A DNA stretch of 34,634 nt from Frankiales bacterium (GTDB lineage: Bacteria > Actinomycetota > Actinomycetes > Mycobacteriales > SCTD01): the NCBI GenBank assembly GCA_025352005.1, contig JANXUE010000143.1:1-34634 (forward strand). The letters run 5' to 3'. Below the pieces are notes generated by a model, which did no database searches, was not told the origin of the DNA, and saw only the letters and a program-made list of their open reading frames with translations. Numbering within the stretch: the first letter of the stretch is position 1; each line of letters begins with the position of its first letter. Positions 16,696 through 24,940 of the stretch are shown here, in pieces. The position numbers were made by a program, and so were the translations under genes.

Positions 16696-17169
16696 TTAGC
16701 CGTTGGCGTCGGTGCAGGCGCCCGCAGTGAGGCCGCCGGCGGCGGAGTACTCAAAGCCGACAACGGACTTGTCGCCCTGGGCGTCCTGAACCGTGACGCA
16801 CCAGTGCGTTGCGTCCACGAAGAACTGGTTGAACAGGGTGACGTTGTTGCTTGACTTACCCAGGTCAGTAGCCGCGTAGGCAGCGATCGCCGGAGGGCCG
16901 ACTACGGCCGGGGCGCTCAGGGAGTAGCGACCGGCGGCGGTCTGAACAACGACCGGCGAAACGGTGTTGTCGACGTAGTAGGTCGCGATCTCCTTGCCGA
17001 TGGTGGAGACATCGGCCTTGGCTGCGGTGTCCTGCGCCTTCTTACGCTGGTTCAAGAACACCGGGATGGCGATCGCGGCGAGGATGCCGATGATGATCAT
17101 GACGACCAGGAGCTCGATGAGGGTGAAGCCACCCTCGGACTCCTGCGACTTACGGATACGAGCCAGCAT
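16696..17169 (-). CDS. pilA: Major type IV pilin
   Basis: MLARIRKSQESEGGFTLIELLVVMIIIGILAAIAIPVFLNQRKKAQDTAAKADV; G/F prepilin cleavage site; SD GGAGG (17178-17182) 8 nt before ATG. Confidence 0.93.
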   Translation of the reverse strand: MLARIRKSQESEGGFTLIELLVVMIIIGILAAIAIPVFLNQRKKAQDTAAKADVSTIGKEIATYYVDNTVSPVVVQTAAGRYSLSAPAVVGPPAIAAYAATDLGKSSNNVTLFNQFFVDATHWCVTVQDAQGDKSVVGFEYSAAGGLTAGACTDANG

Positions 17170-17200
17170 TGCGATGTCCTCCAGGACTGGATATGTGTGA

Positions 17201-17249
17201 GCCGCGCGGTGGTCCTGCAACTCCTCGCGCGGCCCTCCGAGGAGGGGCC
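17201..17249 (-). promoter_or_regulatory. Putative expression platform: two overlapping hairpins between aptamer and pilA start
   Basis: GGCCCTCC-GA-GGAGGGGCC (17231-17249) and GCCGCGCG/CGCGCGGC (17201-17208/17226-17233) share 17231-17233. Confidence 0.5.
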
Positions 17250-17254
17250 GGCCG

Positions 17255-17325
17255 AGGCAGCTGGGCTGACTGCGATGAGTCCCCTGGCTTTGCGTCCCCG
17301 CCTCACGACGGGTTTGCCTTTGCTT
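17255..17325 (-). ncRNA. Cyclic di-GMP-I (GEMM) riboswitch aptamer in the pilA leader
   Basis: Minus-strand GCAAAGGCAAACCCGUCGUGAGGCGGGGACGCAAAGCCAGGGGACUCAUCGCAGUCAGCCCAGCUGCCU: conserved GGCAAACC, P1b CCCGUC-GUGA-GGCGGG with GNRA loop, GGGACGCAAAGCC, P2 GGG..CCC/GACU..AGUC, closing AGGCA/UGCCU. Confidence 0.87.
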
Positions 17326-17351
17326 GGCGTTGCGGCTCTATGACAATAGAT

Positions 17352-17379
17352 ACTTCGGCTAGATCAGGTAGACCCTTTA
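17352..17379 (-). promoter_or_regulatory. Sigma28/WhiG-like promoter candidate for pilA
   Basis: TAAA (17379-17376) - 16 nt - GCCGAAGT (17359-17352), resembling TAAA-N15/16-GCCGATAA; predicted start just upstream of the aptamer. Confidence 0.4.
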
Positions 17380-17423
17380 GCGCTCCAAACAGGATTCTCG
17401 AAAGAACTGATCGACAACGCAGA

Positions 17424-17453
17424 ACGGCCCCGCCGAATGTTCGGCGGGGCCGT
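17424..17453 (-). terminator. Terminator hairpin downstream of pilC
   Basis: Perfect 14-bp stem ACGGCCCCGCCGAA-TG-TTCGGCGGGGCCGT followed by UUCUGCGUUG on the minus strand. Confidence 0.75.
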
Positions 17454-17484: not shown

Positions 17485-18711
17485 CTACTTGATGAGGTCG
17501 AAGATCTTGAAGATGGGCATGTACAGTGCCACGATCATCGACCCGACGATGCCACCCAGGAACGCGATCATGAGCGGCTCTATGAGCGCGGTCAGCGACT
17601 CCGTAGTCGACTCGACCTCCTGGTCGTAGAACTGGGCGATCTTGTGGAGCATCGTGTCGAGTGCTCCGGTTTCCTCTCCTACCGCCATCATCTGCACCAC
17701 CATGGGTGGGAAGACGGGATGCTCGGTCAGGGGTCGTGTCAACGACTCACCCGTGCGCACGCTCTCCTGCACGGCTCGGGTGGCCCGCTCGAGGACGACG
17801 TTGCCGGTCGTCTCGGCCACGATGTCGAGGCTTTGCAGGATGGGCACACCGGACTGCATCATCGTGCCCAGGTTGCGGGCGAAGCGGGTCAGCGCGATCT
17901 TGCGGAAAAGCTCGCCGAAAACGGGGAGCTTGAGCTTGAGCGGGTCGACGATGTTGCGCACCTGCTCGGTGCGCTTGATCTTCGCCCAGACGGTCCGGCC
18001 GATGATGACCAGGATGATGAGGGGGATGATTCCGACCTTCAGACCCGTGGACAGGCTCACCAGGATCTGCGTCGGGAGCGGCAGCTTGCCACCAAGGGTC
18101 TTGAACAGCCCCACGAAGGTCGGCACGATGAACAGGAGCATCCCGATCACGGCCAGGACCGCGATGCAGAGAACGACGACCGGATAGGTCATCGCAGACT
18201 TCACCTTGCCGCGGAGCTTGACCTCAGCCTCGTAGTTATTGGCGATCTGCAGCATCACTGAGTCGAGGAAACCGCCGACCTCGCCGGCCTTGCACATGTT
18301 GACCATGAGCGGCGGGAACGCGTCGGGGTGCTTGGCCATGGCTGAAGACAGGCTGTTGCCGGTCTCGATGTCGTTGCGCACCTCACCCAGGACACGGGCC
18401 AGCTCCTTGTTCTCCGTCTGGTCGACGAGGATGTTGAGCGCGCGAAGCAGCGACAGACCAGCGTTGACCATTGTGGCGAACTGGCGCGAGAAGATCGCGA
18501 GGTCCTTGAGCCCGACCTTCTTCGGACCCCCGAAGCCGGGGATCTTCAGCTCCTTGCTCATACCGGCGTTGGTCTGGTTGATGCTGATCGGCGCGTAGCC
18601 CATCGACTTCAGCTTCGTGGCGACCTGACTCGGGGACTCAGCGTCGAGCGTTCCCGTCTTCACCGAGCCGCTCTTGTCGCGGACCTTGTACTCGTACGTC
18701 AGAGATGCCAT
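17485..18711 (-). CDS. pilC: Type IV pilus platform protein PilC
   Basis: 408 aa; FSRQFATMVNAGLSLLRALNIL, CKAGEVGGFLDSVMLQIANNYE, AVGEETGALDTMLHKIAQFYDQEVE; T2SF domains. Confidence 0.96.
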   Translation of the reverse strand: MASLTYEYKVRDKSGSVKTGTLDAESPSQVATKLKSMGYAPISINQTNAGMSKELKIPGFGGPKKVGLKDLAIFSRQFATMVNAGLSLLRALNILVDQTENKELARVLGEVRNDIETGNSLSSAMAKHPDAFPPLMVNMCKAGEVGGFLDSVMLQIANNYEAEVKLRGKVKSAMTYPVVVLCIAVLAVIGMLLFIVPTFVGLFKTLGGKLPLPTQILVSLSTGLKVGIIPLIILVIIGRTVWAKIKRTEQVRNIVDPLKLKLPVFGELFRKIALTRFARNLGTMMQSGVPILQSLDIVAETTGNVVLERATRAVQESVRTGESLTRPLTEHPVFPPMVVQMMAVGEETGALDTMLHKIAQFYDQEVESTTESLTALIEPLMIAFLGGIVGSMIVALYMPIFKIFDLIK

Positions 18712-18723
18712 CGCCCTGTCCCC

Positions 18724-20262
18724 TTATGCCCGGCCGCTGAGGCGCTGGAAGTCCTCGACGTGGTGGCACTTCTCGAGCGCCGCGTCGTAGGTAATCTTGC
18801 CCTTCTTGACCAGCTCTGCGAGGTGCTGGTCCATCGTCGCCATGCCGTGCTTCGCCCCAGCCTGCATGGCCGAGTAGATCTGGTGGGTCTTGCCTTCACG
18901 GATGAGGTTGCGGATCGCCGGAGTGGCAACCAGGATCTCCGTCGCCACCACGCGCCCCTTGCCGTCCACCGTGCGGACGAGCTGCTGGCAGACAACGCCC
19001 TGCAACGCCCCGGCGAGCTGGACGCGGACCTGCTGCTGCTGGTGCGGCGGGAAGACGTCGATGACGCGGTCGATCGTCTGGGCGGCATCCTGCGTGTGCA
19101 GGGTCGCCATGACCAGGTGGCCGGTCTCGGCGGCCGTGAGGGCGACCTCGATCGTCTCGAGGTCCCGCATCTCACCGACCAGGATGATGTCGGGGTCCTG
19201 GCGCAGGACGTGCTTGAGGGCGGCCTTGAAGGACCAGGTGTCCTCCCCGACCTCCCGCTGGTTGACCAGGCACTTCTTGTGCCGGTGCAGGAACTCGATC
19301 GGATCCTCGACCGTCATGATGTGGTCCTGACGCTGACGGTTGGCCAGGTCGACGACAGCGGCGAGGGTCGTGGACTTGCCGGAGCCGGTGGGGCCGGTGA
19401 CCAGCACGAAGCCGCGCGGCAGCATGGCGAAGTTGGCGACGGCCGGCGGGACGCCGAGGTCCTCGAGGGCCCTGATCTCAAAGGGGATCAGGCGGAAGGC
19501 GGCGCCGAGCGCGTCGCGCTGTTTGTAGATGTTGACGCGGAAGCGGGCCCGACCGGGGACGCTGTAGGCGAAGTCGAGCTCGAGGTTCTCCTCGAACTTC
19601 TCGCGCTGCTTTTGGGACAGCACTGCGTAGACCAGCTTGGTCATCACCTGGGGCGTGAGGACTGCGCGCCCCTCGACGGGGACCAGGTGGCCGTTCTCCC
19701 GCACCGTCGGGGGAGCGCCGACCGTGAGGTGCAGGTCGGAGCACTTGCGGTCCAGGACCTCGATGAGCAGCTCGGTGAGGAAGTTGCTGTCGTCGCTGGT
19801 GTCCTCGGCGCCGACGCGGACTGCGGGCGACTCAGCAGCCTGGGCCGAGGCCTGAGCCTTCACCAGGTCCGGGCTGGGCAGTGGCTGCGTGGGAATGGCG
19901 CTGACCACCGGTGCGGCGAGGCCAGGGGCCGGTGCGGCCAACGGTGTGGGAGCAGCCAGCGGAGCTGGTGAGACATGGGCAACCACCCTCGGGGCCGGGG
20001 CGGGAGGGGCCAACGGCGCAGCGAGAGCAGTGGGCGGGGCCGAAGGCGCCATGGCAGCAACAGGCTCTGCATACACGGGCACCGGAGGCGCGACGATCGG
20101 AGCGGCCGGGGGGCTGAAGGCCAATGTGGGCTGGGCCAGGTCCAGTGCGTCAGCTGCATGCAGCTGAGGAGCGGGCGTCCAGTTCGGGTCGAGCGGCGAC
20201 GGGGAGACCGCCGCGGAACCGAAGTACCCATCAGCTCCCGACGATCCCTGCTGCGTGTCCAC
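18724..20262 (-). CDS. pilT: Type IV pilus retraction-type ATPase PilT with long Pro/Ala-rich N-terminal extension
   Basis: GPTGSGKSTTLAAVVDLANRQRQDHIMTVEDPIEFLHRHKKCLVNQREVG...HLVMATLHTQDAAQTIDRVIDVFPPHQQQQVRVQLA; low-complexity N-terminal segment of about 150 aa. Confidence 0.94.
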   Translation of the reverse strand: MDTQQGSSGADGYFGSAAVSPSPLDPNWTPAPQLHAADALDLAQPTLAFSPPAAPIVAPPVPVYAEPVAAMAPSAPPTALAAPLAPPAPAPRVVAHVSPAPLAAPTPLAAPAPGLAAPVVSAIPTQPLPSPDLVKAQASAQAAESPAVRVGAEDTSDDSNFLTELLIEVLDRKCSDLHLTVGAPPTVRENGHLVPVEGRAVLTPQVMTKLVYAVLSQKQREKFEENLELDFAYSVPGRARFRVNIYKQRDALGAAFRLIPFEIRALEDLGVPPAVANFAMLPRGFVLVTGPTGSGKSTTLAAVVDLANRQRQDHIMTVEDPIEFLHRHKKCLVNQREVGEDTWSFKAALKHVLRQDPDIILVGEMRDLETIEVALTAAETGHLVMATLHTQDAAQTIDRVIDVFPPHQQQQVRVQLAGALQGVVCQQLVRTVDGKGRVVATEILVATPAIRNLIREGKTHQIYSAMQAGAKHGMATMDQHLAELVKKGKITYDAALEKCHHVEDFQRLSGRA

Positions 20263-20346: not shown

Positions 20347-22014
20347 TTACACCACGACGCGGAAGATCTCCTCAACCGACGTGATCCCGGCCAGAACCTT
20401 GAGCATCCCGTCGTGGCGAAGCGTGATCATCCCCTGCTCGACGGCGTGCCGACCGATGACCATGGAGGACGCCCGCTCGACCGTCATCCGCTCGATCTCC
20501 TCGTCGACGGCCATGACCTCGTGCAGGGCAAGACGACCCTTGTAACCCGTCTTGGAGCAGGCGGAGCAGCCAATGGGGCGGTAGATGGTGGGCAGCGGCA
20601 TCCCGTCCTGCCAGGGAAAGCGGCCCGCGATGAGGGCTTCCGGCGTCGGGACGTAGGCCTCCTTGCACTTGGCGCAGAGCTTGCGCGCGAGGCGCTGGGC
20701 GAGCACGCAGTCCAGGGCAGAACCGACGAGGAAGGGCTCGATGCCCATCTCGGTCAGCCGCACGATCGCGGACGGGGCGTCGTTCGTGTGCAGGGTCGTC
20801 AACACCAGGTGACCGGTGAGGGAGGCCTCGACGGCGATGTGCGCCGTCTCCTTGTCGCGGATCTCGCCGAGCAGCACGATGTCGGGGTCGGACCGCAGGA
20901 TCGAGCGCAGCGCCGCGGCGAAGGTGAGGCCGGCCTTGACGTTGGTCTGCACCTGGTTGATGCCCGGGAGCCGGTACTCCACGGGGTCCTCGACGGTGAT
21001 GACATTGACCTCGGGCCTGCTGACGATGTTGAGGGTCGCGTACAGCGTCGTCGACTTTCCCGAGCCGGTCGGGCCGGTCACCAGAATCATCCCGTAGGGC
21101 TTCACGAAGCTCTTGGAGTAGACCTCGTAGTTGGAGTCGGAGAAGCCCAGGTCGGACAACTTGAGCATGGCCGTGGAGTTGTCCAGGACACGCATGACGA
21201 TCTTCTCGCCCCATACGGTCGGCAGGGTCGCGACGCGAAGGTCGATCTTCTTGCCGTTGGCGTTGACCGACAGGCGGCCATCCTGCGGGATACGACGCTC
21301 CGCGATGTTGATGTCGGCCATGATCTTCAGGCGGGACGTCACGCCCGAGGTGATCGTCTTCGGGGAGCGCATCACCTCGTGCAACACACCGTCGATCCGG
21401 AACCGCACACGCAGATCGCGTTCGGCCGGCTCGATGTGGATATCGGAGGCACGGTCCTGGATGGCCTGCGTGATCAGCAGGTTGACGAACTTGACGATGG
21501 GGGCGTCTTCGACGACCTCTTTGACCTTGCTGAGGTCGTCGTCGTCGTCGTTCTTGGCGTCGAGCGCCAAGGTGAGGTCGTCCATCTCGGCGTCGCCGCG
21601 GTGGTATTTGTTGATTGCGGCCAGCACGTCAGGCTTGGTCGCGACGACCGGCTTGACCTCCATGCCGCTGATGGAGCGGATGTCGTCGAGGGCGAAGACG
21701 TTGGCCGGGTCGGCCATGGCCACCAACAGCTTGCCGTCGTCGTACCCGATGGGCAAGGCGGTGTGACGGCGGCAGACCGCATCGGAGATCCGGGAGACCG
21801 CGGAGCCGTCAACGCTGTAGTCGCTCAGGTCAACGAACTGCATGCCGATCTGGGTCGCGAGGGCTGCCACGAGCTGGGACTCCGTGAGGGTCCCCAGGTC
21901 GACAAGCACCCGGCCCAGGCTGCGTCCGAGCCGCTGCTGCTCCTCGACCGCGCCGCCGAGCTGCGCGTGGGTGACCAGACCGCCCTCGAGCAGGATGTCG
22001 CCCAACTGCTTCAC
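20347..22014 (-). CDS. pilB: Type IV pilus extension ATPase PilB with MshEN-like N-terminal domain
   Basis: 555 aa; GPTGSGKSTTLYATL, TVEDPVEYRLPGINQVQTN, TTLHTNDAPSAIVRL, CxxC pairs LCAKC/GCSAC; QLGDILLEGGLVTHAQLGGAVEEQ-QRLGR-SLGRVLVDLGTLTESQLVAALATQ. Confidence 0.95.
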   Translation of the reverse strand: MKQLGDILLEGGLVTHAQLGGAVEEQQRLGRSLGRVLVDLGTLTESQLVAALATQIGMQFVDLSDYSVDGSAVSRISDAVCRRHTALPIGYDDGKLLVAMADPANVFALDDIRSISGMEVKPVVATKPDVLAAINKYHRGDAEMDDLTLALDAKNDDDDDLSKVKEVVEDAPIVKFVNLLITQAIQDRASDIHIEPAERDLRVRFRIDGVLHEVMRSPKTITSGVTSRLKIMADINIAERRIPQDGRLSVNANGKKIDLRVATLPTVWGEKIVMRVLDNSTAMLKLSDLGFSDSNYEVYSKSFVKPYGMILVTGPTGSGKSTTLYATLNIVSRPEVNVITVEDPVEYRLPGINQVQTNVKAGLTFAAALRSILRSDPDIVLLGEIRDKETAHIAVEASLTGHLVLTTLHTNDAPSAIVRLTEMGIEPFLVGSALDCVLAQRLARKLCAKCKEAYVPTPEALIAGRFPWQDGMPLPTIYRPIGCSACSKTGYKGRLALHEVMAVDEEIERMTVERASSMVIGRHAVEQGMITLRHDGMLKVLAGITSVEEIFRVVV

Positions 22015-22104: not shown

Positions 22105-22365
22105 TCAGTCTCGCTGGGCGAGGACGGACGCAATCTCCTCGAGGGCCTTCGCCTGTGGGGACCCCGGCACGAGCGACGCGGTCGAGCCGTCCCGAAAGCC
22201 CAGCTCCACGCGCGGTCCAGCGGGAGCGGGCGGAGCGGCCACCGGAGGAGGAACAGGCAACGGGGTGTAGACGGGTGAGGGCTCGACAACCCCTACCAGG
22301 GAGGGGATCGCGGAGACAGCAGGCCCGAGCGCATGCTTGCCCGCCCTGCGGCGGAAGGGCCACAT
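22105..22365 (-). CDS. Small Pro-rich protein of unknown function, translationally coupled to the GTPase gene
   Basis: 86 aa MWPFRRRAGKHALGPAV...VELGFRDGSTASLVPGSPQAKALEEIASVLAQRD; TGATG stop/start overlap. Confidence 0.6.
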   Translation of the reverse strand: MWPFRRRAGKHALGPAVSAIPSLVGVVEPSPVYTPLPVPPPVAAPPAPAGPRVELGFRDGSTASLVPGSPQAKALEEIASVLAQRD

Positions 22366-22949
22366 CAGGCGCGGGCAGGCTCAGCGGCGTCGACCGAGTC
22401 CACGACCGAGTACAGCAGGGCCAACAGGACCGCCTTGACCGACTCACGGTCGGTCGCGTCGCACGGGACGATCGCGACCTCGTCGTCGAGGGAGAGCACG
22501 TCCCGGACGTGCTGCTCGTCGTCGGGCCCGATACCGGCGGAACGGTTGAGGGCCACGACGAACGGCACGCGGGCCATCTTGCGGAAGGCCTCGAGGATGC
22601 CGACAGCCTCGTCGAGGGAGTCCTGCCGGGAGCTGTCCACGAGCAGGATGTAACCGAGCATCCCCTCGCCGAGGATCTCCCACATGAAGTCGAAACGGTC
22701 CTGGCCGGGAGTGCCGAACAGGTACAGCACGAGGTCCCGGTCGATGGTGATGCGACCGAAGTCCATGGCCACTGTCGTCTCGGCCTTGCGGGACTTGGTG
22801 TGGTCGGTGACGTCCTTCTCGGTCGACAGGACCGTGATCTCGCTGATGGTGCGGATCAAGGTCGTCTTGCCCGCGGAGAACGGACCCGTCACGACGATCT
22901 TGACTGCGGTGCCGCCGTGCTTGCGACGTCCTGGGGAACGGGTGCTCAT
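22365..22949 (-). CDS. MglA/CvnD-like small Ras-type GTPase
   Basis: KIVVTGPFSAGKTTLIRTISE P-loop, ETTVAMDFGRI, LFGTPGQDRFDFMWE; G4 position reads NRSAG rather than NKxD. Confidence 0.87.
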   Translation of the reverse strand: MSTRSPGRRKHGGTAVKIVVTGPFSAGKTTLIRTISEITVLSTEKDVTDHTKSRKAETTVAMDFGRITIDRDLVLYLFGTPGQDRFDFMWEILGEGMLGYILLVDSSRQDSLDEAVGILEAFRKMARVPFVVALNRSAGIGPDDEQHVRDVLSLDDEVAIVPCDATDRESVKAVLLALLYSVVDSVDAAEPARA

Positions 22950-22951
22950 GG

Positions 22952-24118
22952 CTACAACCCCCTCACACCGGCGATGAGCCTCAACAGCAGGCTCTTGTTC
23001 ACAGACGGATCACGATCGATGTACGACGACGGCGCGGGGTCGGGCTGCAGTTGCGGCGCCAGGGCATGCGCCCCCTGTACGGCGCCGACGCCGGCGGACG
23101 GAGCGCTCGGGCTGTGGGCGGACACGCTGGCAGCGACGGCCGAGCTGCGCATCCCCCCGGACAAGGCGCCGAGGCGGGCCAGGGCCGGCAACGCCTGTTC
23201 GGCGTGGTCGGGCTGGCGCGGCGGTGTGAAGGGCTCGGGTCGCTCAGGGATGACCGGTGGTCGTGCCATCGCGGCCGCAGGGGACACGGGGGCGACGGGG
23301 GCGACGGGGGCGACGGGCACGTCGACGACCGGTGCGACGCCACCCTCGAGGGCAGCGAGCAGCTCCTGGCGTTGGGCCAGGGGGCTGGGCCCCTCGGGCC
23401 GCTCCCCCACGACGACCAGGCCGCGGTCGGCGAGGCCGGCCAGGGTCGACACCACGACGTACTCGCCGGTGCCGGTGAGGGTGACGAGCTGCGCGACGGT
23501 ACGTGCGCCGTCAACGAGGGCGAGCAGCGACCACTCCTCGCGGGACAGGACCGGGTCGGTCCCCGGCACCGGCTGCAGCGAGACGACCGCAGCTCCTGTC
23601 GCGACCTTCTCGGTGAGAGTCGCCCAGGTGTCGAGCCGACGGCGGCCCTCAGCCACCACGTCCTCGACGGGCAGCGAGGCCCCGAGGTCGTCCGGATCGG
23701 CCTCGTCGACAACAAAGGCGAAGTCACCGTTCGGCCAGCGAAGCAGCTCGAAGACCGCATCGGTGGCCTGCTCCGCGGCGTAGCCGGCGAGCACCTCGGC
23801 GTCGAGCCGGCCGGTGTCGGCGAAGGTCTTGGCCAGACCGGAACCAGGAGCCTCGAGGACCTTCTCGACGGCGTCGGCGAGGGTCTCGTCGTCGACGAGG
23901 CCCGCTCCGACGAGGCGGCGGCCCAGAGCCTGGCAGCTCACGTCGCCGCGGCCACCGGTCACGGCGCCGTCGCGCAAGTGCACGACCCCGTGCAGCGCGT
24001 CGCCGTCGCCGTTACTGGCAGCACGGCGCAGGTGCAGCGTCCCCGTCTTCTTCGTATAGCTCAAGAGCTGGAAGATGTCCGGGAGGCTGAACGCGTCAAG
24101 CGTTCCCTCGAGTCTCAC
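22952..24118 (-). CDS. DUF4388 (PATAN-type) domain protein
   Basis: MRLEGTLDAFSLPDIFQLLSYTKKTGTLHLRR typical DUF4388 start; Pro/Ala/Val-rich C-terminal linker. Confidence 0.82.
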   Translation of the reverse strand: MRLEGTLDAFSLPDIFQLLSYTKKTGTLHLRRAASNGDGDALHGVVHLRDGAVTGGRGDVSCQALGRRLVGAGLVDDETLADAVEKVLEAPGSGLAKTFADTGRLDAEVLAGYAAEQATDAVFELLRWPNGDFAFVVDEADPDDLGASLPVEDVVAEGRRRLDTWATLTEKVATGAAVVSLQPVPGTDPVLSREEWSLLALVDGARTVAQLVTLTGTGEYVVVSTLAGLADRGLVVVGERPEGPSPLAQRQELLAALEGGVAPVVDVPVAPVAPVAPVSPAAAMARPPVIPERPEPFTPPRQPDHAEQALPALARLGALSGGMRSSAVAASVSAHSPSAPSAGVGAVQGAHALAPQLQPDPAPSSYIDRDPSVNKSLLLRLIAGVRGL

Positions 24119-24145
24119 GACTGTCCCGTCAGGTCAGTGGGTCGG

Positions 24146-24829
24146 TCAGGACCAGGTCGGGTTGTCGCCCGGCAGGACTGAGCCCGTCGGCGCGTAGGAC
24201 GTCCAAGCGGGGGCCTCGGCCTGAGCCGCGTAAGCCACCGGCTCCGCGTAGGACGGCCCGGTGTAACCCGGCTCGAGGTAGGCAGGCTCAGCGTAGGCAG
24301 GCTCAGCGTAGGTAGGGGCCGGCTCCGCCGGCAGGGCGGGTACGGCGGTGAGCAGCGGCTCGGTGGCCGCGGCCGGATCGGCGGGCGCCCCGGCAAGGAC
24401 TCCGGCGGGGACTGCATCAGAGGCAAGGAGCGGCTCGTCCTCGGCCCGCAGGACGTCGGCGACGAGCGCCGACGCGCGGCGCACCTCGTACAGCATCATG
24501 CCGACCTTGGCGCCCTTGGCGGCGACGGCGACCAGCACCGCCTCGTCGTCGCACGACACCAGGAAGACGGTGCCGGAGTCGCCTTCGATGTAGACCTGGG
24601 ACAGCTCGCCACGGCCAAGGCCCTGCGCTGCGCGCTCGCCGAGTGAGAGCAGGGCGGCGCTCATCGCGGCCACCCGGTCCTCGTCCATCGACGGCGGCAG
24701 CGCGGAGGCCATCGGCAGGCCGTCGAAGCTGACGACGGCAGCCGCCTCGATCTCCGGGGTCTGCGACAGCAGGCCGTGGATGGCCCGGTCGAGACGATCC
24801 GAACGGCTTCCGGCCTGCAGGTCTGACAT
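24146..24829 (-). CDS. Roadblock/LC7 domain protein with C-terminal aromatic repeat tail
   Basis: LDRAIHGLLSQTPEIEAAAVVSFDGLPMASALP...MSAALLSLGERAAQGLGRGELSQVYIEGDSGTVFLVSCDDEAVLVAVAA; internal ATG at 24829; tail AYAEPAYAEPAYLEPGYTGPSYAEP. Confidence 0.87.
   Translation of the reverse strand: MSDLQAGSRSDRLDRAIHGLLSQTPEIEAAAVVSFDGLPMASALPPSMDEDRVAAMSAALLSLGERAAQGLGRGELSQVYIEGDSGTVFLVSCDDEAVLVAVAAKGAKVGMMLYEVRRASALVADVLRAEDEPLLASDAVPAGVLAGAPADPAAATEPLLTAVPALPAEPAPTYAEPAYAEPAYLEPGYTGPSYAEPVAYAAQAEAPAWTSYAPTGSVLPGDNPTWS
24278..24307 (-). repeat. Perfect tandem 15-bp repeat within a degenerate array encoding (Y-A-E-P-A)n
   Basis: GTAGGCAGGCTCAGC twice in tandem; degenerate flanking copies. Confidence 0.8.
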
Positions 24830-24940
24830 GGCGCGCCCCTTCCAGCGGTCGGCCGTGCGCACGACCTAGAACCTGCTTCGGCGCGTTATGGGATGGCCTT
24901 GAGCGCGGGGCCAGGGGGCCGTCGCCGGGCCCGACCCGGA

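Follow-up and report, generated by a model that had tools for sequence, protein, structure and literature searches.

In the window (the whole 34.6 kb stretch of DNA analysed, from an uncultured actinobacterium), the mRNA of pilA, which encodes the major pilin, carries a class-I c-di-GMP aptamer in its 5' leader, and it is probable that this RNA works together with a FliA/WhiG-family promoter blocked via the anti-sigma factor RsiG, and with a fold switch between helices P1 and P0 that would alter pilA output. Judging from sequence, c-di-GMP would most likely act twice on pilA, at the promoter via RsiG-WhiG and then on the leader RNA. We give even chances to the broader proposal that this is a widespread type of actinobacterial pilA leader, in which RsiG-WhiG is followed by a class-I riboswitch with a new platform, the 5' end of the mRNA forming P0 around the aptamer. 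All features described below lie on the minus strand.

Aptamer identification and anatomy

The window was screened against all of Rfam by means of cmscan, which gave one match above the curated cut-off: c-di-GMP-I-GGC (RF03167) at 17327-17252, full length (model positions 1-80), with 66.6 bits (curated cut-off 59 bits) and an E-value of 8.2e-14. The c-di-GMP-I model (RF01051), with which a sequence-only reading had suggested searching, scores 59.0 bits at the same site against a curated cut-off of 35 and thus places the element in this family. Searched over the draft genome of 3.07 Mb, each model finds one copy, namely the aptamer of the window; since the draft is 89% complete and consists of 323 contigs, further copies could be missing.

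The c-di-GMP-I (GEMM-I) aptamer (17252..17327) ends 82 nt before the pilA ATG (17169). The sequence-only reading had correctly put it in the leader upstream of this ATG, at a distance that it overestimated as about 90 nt, and all aptamer letters that it quoted are found on the minus strand. Its central claim, a c-di-GMP-I (GEMM) aptamer in the major pilin leader, is borne out by two curated covariance models, by strong covariation and by a pilC-pilA position that is kept in other species. The pocket alignment, together with this evidence, supports the view that the leader of this pilin mRNA contains a true class-I riboswitch aptamer, which would be expected to bind c-di-GMP. Taken alone, the aptamer belongs to a known class and is nothing unusual within it.

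P1, as read from the sequence and left out of the covariation scoring, pairs GCCAAG (17323..17328) with CUCGGC (17251..17256) and contains a single A.C mismatch, which provides the P1 closing junction of class I; relatives have a stronger P1, for instance CCGAG/CUCGG. The assignment of P1 to AGGCA/UGCCU in the sequence-only reading was wrong, as the model pairs the GC of GGCAAACC with the GC of GACGC at the base of P2. P2 is the hairpin CCCGUC-GUGA-GGCGGG, capped by the GNRA tetraloop GUGA (17307-17304) that is a further class-I feature, and P3 runs from AAGCC to AGCUG. J1-2 seems to be 4 nt, not 5, in most pilA leaders. The internal loop of P2 (columns 13-15 and 33-35 of alignment A2; 17315-17313 in the window) shows paired changes among relatives, AAA occurring with GAC and ACA with GUC; 50 of the 55 pilA leaders described below have ACA and two have AAA, the window being one of the latter.

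Gene neighbourhood

The pilA-like gene (16696..17169) encodes a major pilin of 157 aa (MLARIRKSQESEGGFTLIELL; Pfam N_methyl, 30.4 bits). It is preceded by a Shine-Dalgarno-like GGAGGA (17177..17182) that, by sequence reading and folding, lies partly within a local hairpin GUCC/GGAC. Upstream, pilC (17485..18711; Pfam T2SSF; PDB 3jc8 PilC, E=4e-100) is followed by a terminator-like hairpin (17425..17452, read from the sequence), so pilA probably has its own transcript. The closest named relatives of the PilC of the window are from Frankiales and Frankiaceae MAGs. Further upstream lie a pilT-like ATPase gene (18724..20262; Pfam T2SSE), assigned as PilT from its position and a weaker ATPase match, and pilB (20347..22014; Pfam T2SSE and MshEN; PDB PilF/PilB), which encodes an extension ATPase with an MshEN domain. 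The first Arg of both c-di-GMP binding motifs of MshEN (PMC5013675) is replaced, QLG and SLG standing instead of RLG, which makes c-di-GMP binding by PilB uncertain. Ahead of pilB are genes for roadblock-like, DUF4388 and small GTPase-like proteins (22365-24830), the roadblock and GTPase assignments being made by sequence reading only.

Relatives and covariation

A covariance model (R1) was built from 25 family sequences and searched in loci around PilC homologues from named organisms, in 250 genomes of the order and in 395 genomes of the class. It matched in 29 of the former genomes and 43 of the latter, and 17 of the 80 PilC loci have an aptamer scoring above 30 bits between pilC and pilA, including loci from Egibacteraceae and Nitriliruptoraceae MAGs; the PilC-locus search returned no aptamer match for the Cellulomonas and Demequina loci. 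The genes downstream of the 118 aptamers were divided by an automatic rule into 55 pilin-like ORFs with an FTLIE motif and 63 other ORFs. Some of the 55 pilA leaders are duplicates, a record being present in both of two collections, and 38 are distinct by leader identity.

The aptamer fold covaries strongly across these related actinobacterial RNAs. Among 92 distinct sequences 95.4% of the cells are paired, against 83.8% upon shuffling, and 175 cells have double changes, against 44.6 in shuffles (a level that none of 500 shuffles reached) and a maximum of 17 when the structure is slid along the alignment. As this alignment was made to fit the structure, it is biased in favour of it; an independent MAFFT alignment of the 25 sequences leaves the picture unchanged (41 versus 12.0).

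Several of the other genes served (L056, L062, L033, L051 and others) encode short secreted proteins and have the aptamer directly before the ribosome site, often with a putative signal peptidase gene next to them. This suggests a wider c-di-GMP regulon. A natural loss of the sensor is seen in the pilA leader of a Sporichthyaceae MAG (L080:5288-5342), which retains the promoter and the flanking boxes described below and has an aptamer without P3.

Promoter and RsiG-WhiG

Upstream of the aptamer we predict a FliA/WhiG-type promoter, CTAAAG-N15-GCCGAA (17354..17380), from its pattern and its conserved place in relatives. By position, transcription is expected to start near GUCAU (about 17344-17340). 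Compared with the flagellar/WhiG consensus TAAA / GCCGATAA (PMC8325347), both the -35 and the -10 element are present, the latter as a partial match that agrees at GCCGA and departs after it. Of the 55 pilA leaders, 47 have a strict version of this promoter at a distance of 20-40 nt upstream of the aptamer, and 50 rounds of dinucleotide shuffling produced no instance of it; it precedes only 3 of the 62 aptamers of other genes. A second WhiG-type promoter, CTCAAG-N15-GCCGAA (24877..24903), was found by pattern search, with 47 nt separating it from the first gene of the roadblock/DUF4388/GTPase stretch downstream. The regulon of WhiG was sampled by pattern search only, and the pattern gives 20 matches genome-wide, barely above the 15 of a reversed control, so that single matches mean little; four of the 20 fall in the window.

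The genome encodes one FliA/WhiG sigma factor (TIGR02479, 286.6 bits; 400 bits with S. venezuelae WhiG, PDB 6pfj_A) and, as revealed by motif search, an RsiG homologue with two copies of E(X)3S(X)2R(X)3Q(X)3D in one ORF, which matches RsiG (PDB 6pfj_T) with E=1.4e-32. In Rubrobacter, type IV pili are under RsiG-WhiG control (PMC8325347). Of 45 genomes with the aptamer, nearly all of which have pilA leaders, 42 contain an RsiG match, as do all 29 of those of high quality; in a class sample that shares genomes with this set, 97 of 297 contain one; the counts of 42 and 97 each include a few weak matches. Shared ancestry may in part explain this association. A second RsiG-like ORF in the same genome (L180:1327-1905) has one intact motif (ESNVSYWRRIIQARLD); no PDB match was obtained for it. 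Ten GGDEF domains are encoded, hence c-di-GMP is likely made.

The most likely reading is that a FliA/WhiG-family sigma factor transcribes the pilA leader, a choice of sigma suggested by the promoter elements and their conserved place. A plain c-di-GMP-I riboswitch behind a promoter read by the housekeeping or another sigma factor, with no RsiG-WhiG layer, would account for the imperfect -10, which differs from GCCGATAA after GCCGA, and for a genome-wide pattern count close to the control. We regard this as unlikely, given a motif whose position is constant in almost every pilA leader, against 3/62 for other riboswitch genes, and which recurs at the head of the genes that precede pilB.

Ligand pocket

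In the numbering of Vc2 (PMC3764141), the alignment places the pocket residues of the window at G20 (17318), A47 (17291), A48 and C92 (17257), the set expected for class I. RF03167 has a conserved G in its consensus at position 47, and from this consensus we read the family name GGC as G20/G47/C92. The window has A here, the canonical class-I residue, and none of the 118 relatives has G. The pocket is therefore that of canonical class I and not of the 'GGC' variant, despite the better score of RF03167. The conserved pocket positions are also kept in related leaders: 109 of the 118 aptamers have G20/A47/C92, the exceptions including four with C20, two with A20 and three with U92.

Sensing of another cyclic dinucleotide, be it cGAMP as in a GEMM-Ib relative, for which the sequence-only reading had left room, or a separate ligand of c-di-GMP-I-GGC if there is any, is very improbable. 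It could draw on the higher score of RF03167 (66.6 versus 59.0 bits with RF01051) and on a J1-2 that seems one nt shorter in most pilA leaders. The cGAMP riboswitches have A at the specificity position 20, where the window has G, and A47 departs from the G of the RF03167 consensus. In addition, the GGDEF domains with an extractable signature (fewer than ten were recovered) have the usual GD and none has the Ser that marks Hypr-type enzymes.

Substitutions at position 20 do occur among the relatives. C20 replaces G20 in four GEMM-I-like aptamers (L054:4852-4926, L059:3272-3346, L064:5978-6052 and L154:424-498), and A20, as in cGAMP riboswitches, is present in L156:1501-1575 and L235:714-807, the former belonging to a pilA leader from a different family within the same order.

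A degenerate or non-functional relic, to which the A.C mismatch in P1 and the P3-less aptamer of L080 with its retained promoter and flanking boxes might point, is scarcely credible for an element that is full length, well over cut-off, intact at all tested pocket residues and strongly covarying across relatives.

Leader folds and expression platform

An outer helix, which we call P0, is formed by GAGCCGC, immediately 5' of the aptamer, and a box GCGGCUC(AC) that precedes the start codon by 25-35 nt. In the window its 5' strand, GAGCCGC (17332..17338), is close to where the mRNA is predicted to begin, and its 3' strand, GCGGCUC, is at 17199..17205. Both the promoter class and P0 were missed by the sequence-only reading. 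Compensated versions are found in relatives: GAGCUGC/GCAGCUC (L220), GAGCCAC/GUGGCUC (L081), GAACC/GGUUC (L089) and GACCGCU/AGCGGUC (L091). In a helix-run test, own boxes compared with swapped ones gave p=0.0004 over 28 non-redundant leaders and 0.004 in 20 divergent ones; an earlier, looser test, in which duplexes could fold freely, gave a weak result (p about 0.011).

Between aptamer and gene, a hairpin H1 (GGCCCCUCC/GGAGGGCC; 17231..17249) adjoins P1; as read by eye from the leaders, its pairing is kept in relatives and its sequence varies. A helix H2 (17201..17233) joins the middle box GCCGCGCG (17233-17226) to CGCGCGGC (17208-17201), so that its 3' strand overlaps that of P0. The swap test gave p=0.0001 for H2 over all leaders and 0.056 over the divergent ones, and the helix competes partly with P0 and H1. 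The minimum-free-energy fold of the window leader, with a stability that is only moderate in comparison with shuffles (z=-1.9), contains P0 and an alternative extended hairpin (17219..17262) in which CCUCG (17257-17253) pairs with CGAGG (17227-17223), capturing C92 and the 3' strand of P1. This extended hairpin is a candidate for the ligand-free state.

Three platforms were considered and rejected. An intrinsic terminator is disfavoured as there is no U-run after H1, and output at the level of translation or mRNA stability is accordingly the reading we adopt. A simple anti-Shine-Dalgarno switch could use CCUCC of H1, which in the window is able to base-pair with the ribosome site; relatives retain the pairing of H1 and not this sequence, and predicted Shine-Dalgarno accessibility barely changes, and with inconsistent sign, between P1-open and P1-closed leaders when P1 or P0 is forced or forbidden. 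The local hairpin GUCC/GGAC at the Shine-Dalgarno is, by eye, absent in several leaders and does not qualify as a conserved element.

Proposed mechanism

We propose that c-di-GMP, together with the anti-sigma factor RsiG, would block the FliA/WhiG-family sigma factor, as has been shown for Streptomyces and Rubrobacter. In the leader RNA, binding of c-di-GMP would close P1, in competition with the extended hairpin that otherwise holds the 3' strand of P1. The ligand is expected to favour a folded leader closed by the outer helix P0, and this P0-closed leader would change translation (or stability) of the pilA mRNA. As for the sign of the riboswitch, the analysis favours neither of two designs: a coherent one, with pilA reduced by c-di-GMP in each step, and an opposing one, with the riboswitch on.

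If this holds, a single second messenger would control the same gene via a protein anti-sigma switch and via an RNA switch in the resulting transcript, and RsiG-WhiG control of type IV pili would reach beyond Rubrobacter to other actinobacteria. The sign of the riboswitch would then decide between a tight double lock and a band-pass response to c-di-GMP, which would make the pilA leader a concrete system to compare the two kinds of logic.

Comparison with known systems

Vc2 of V. cholerae (GEMM-I, RF01051) shares the P2/P3 fold, the GNRA loop and the equivalents of G20, A47, A48, C92, C44 and G83. The leader described here differs from Vc2/RF01051 in its actinobacterial host, in a J1-2 that is apparently one nt shorter and in the second, outer helix P0 that closes the leader. 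With c-di-GMP-I-GGC (RF03167), the best-scoring Rfam family and above its cut-off, the difference is that the conserved G47 is lacking and the canonical A is present.

In C. difficile, Cdi-2-4 before pilA1 (PMC6200980) is likewise a c-di-GMP riboswitch in the leader of a major type IV pilin. It is a class II aptamer with an unrelated fold that allows transcription read-through upon ligand binding, and no RsiG-WhiG promoter has been reported for it (PMC6200980). Rubrobacter likewise has WhiG-type promoters in type IV pilus genes with c-di-GMP as input (PMC8325347), a paper that does not mention a riboswitch. The RsiG of Rubrobacter is a single-motif protein that acts as a dimer; the present genome has the twin-motif form. 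The pairing of RsiG-WhiG with a riboswitch and the P0-coupled leader had no description in the open-access literature searched, which misses most subscription journals. The less ordinary part of the system is that actinobacteria keep a class-I aptamer coupled both with a promoter of WhiG type and with an outer helix that the predicted 5' end of the mRNA forms.
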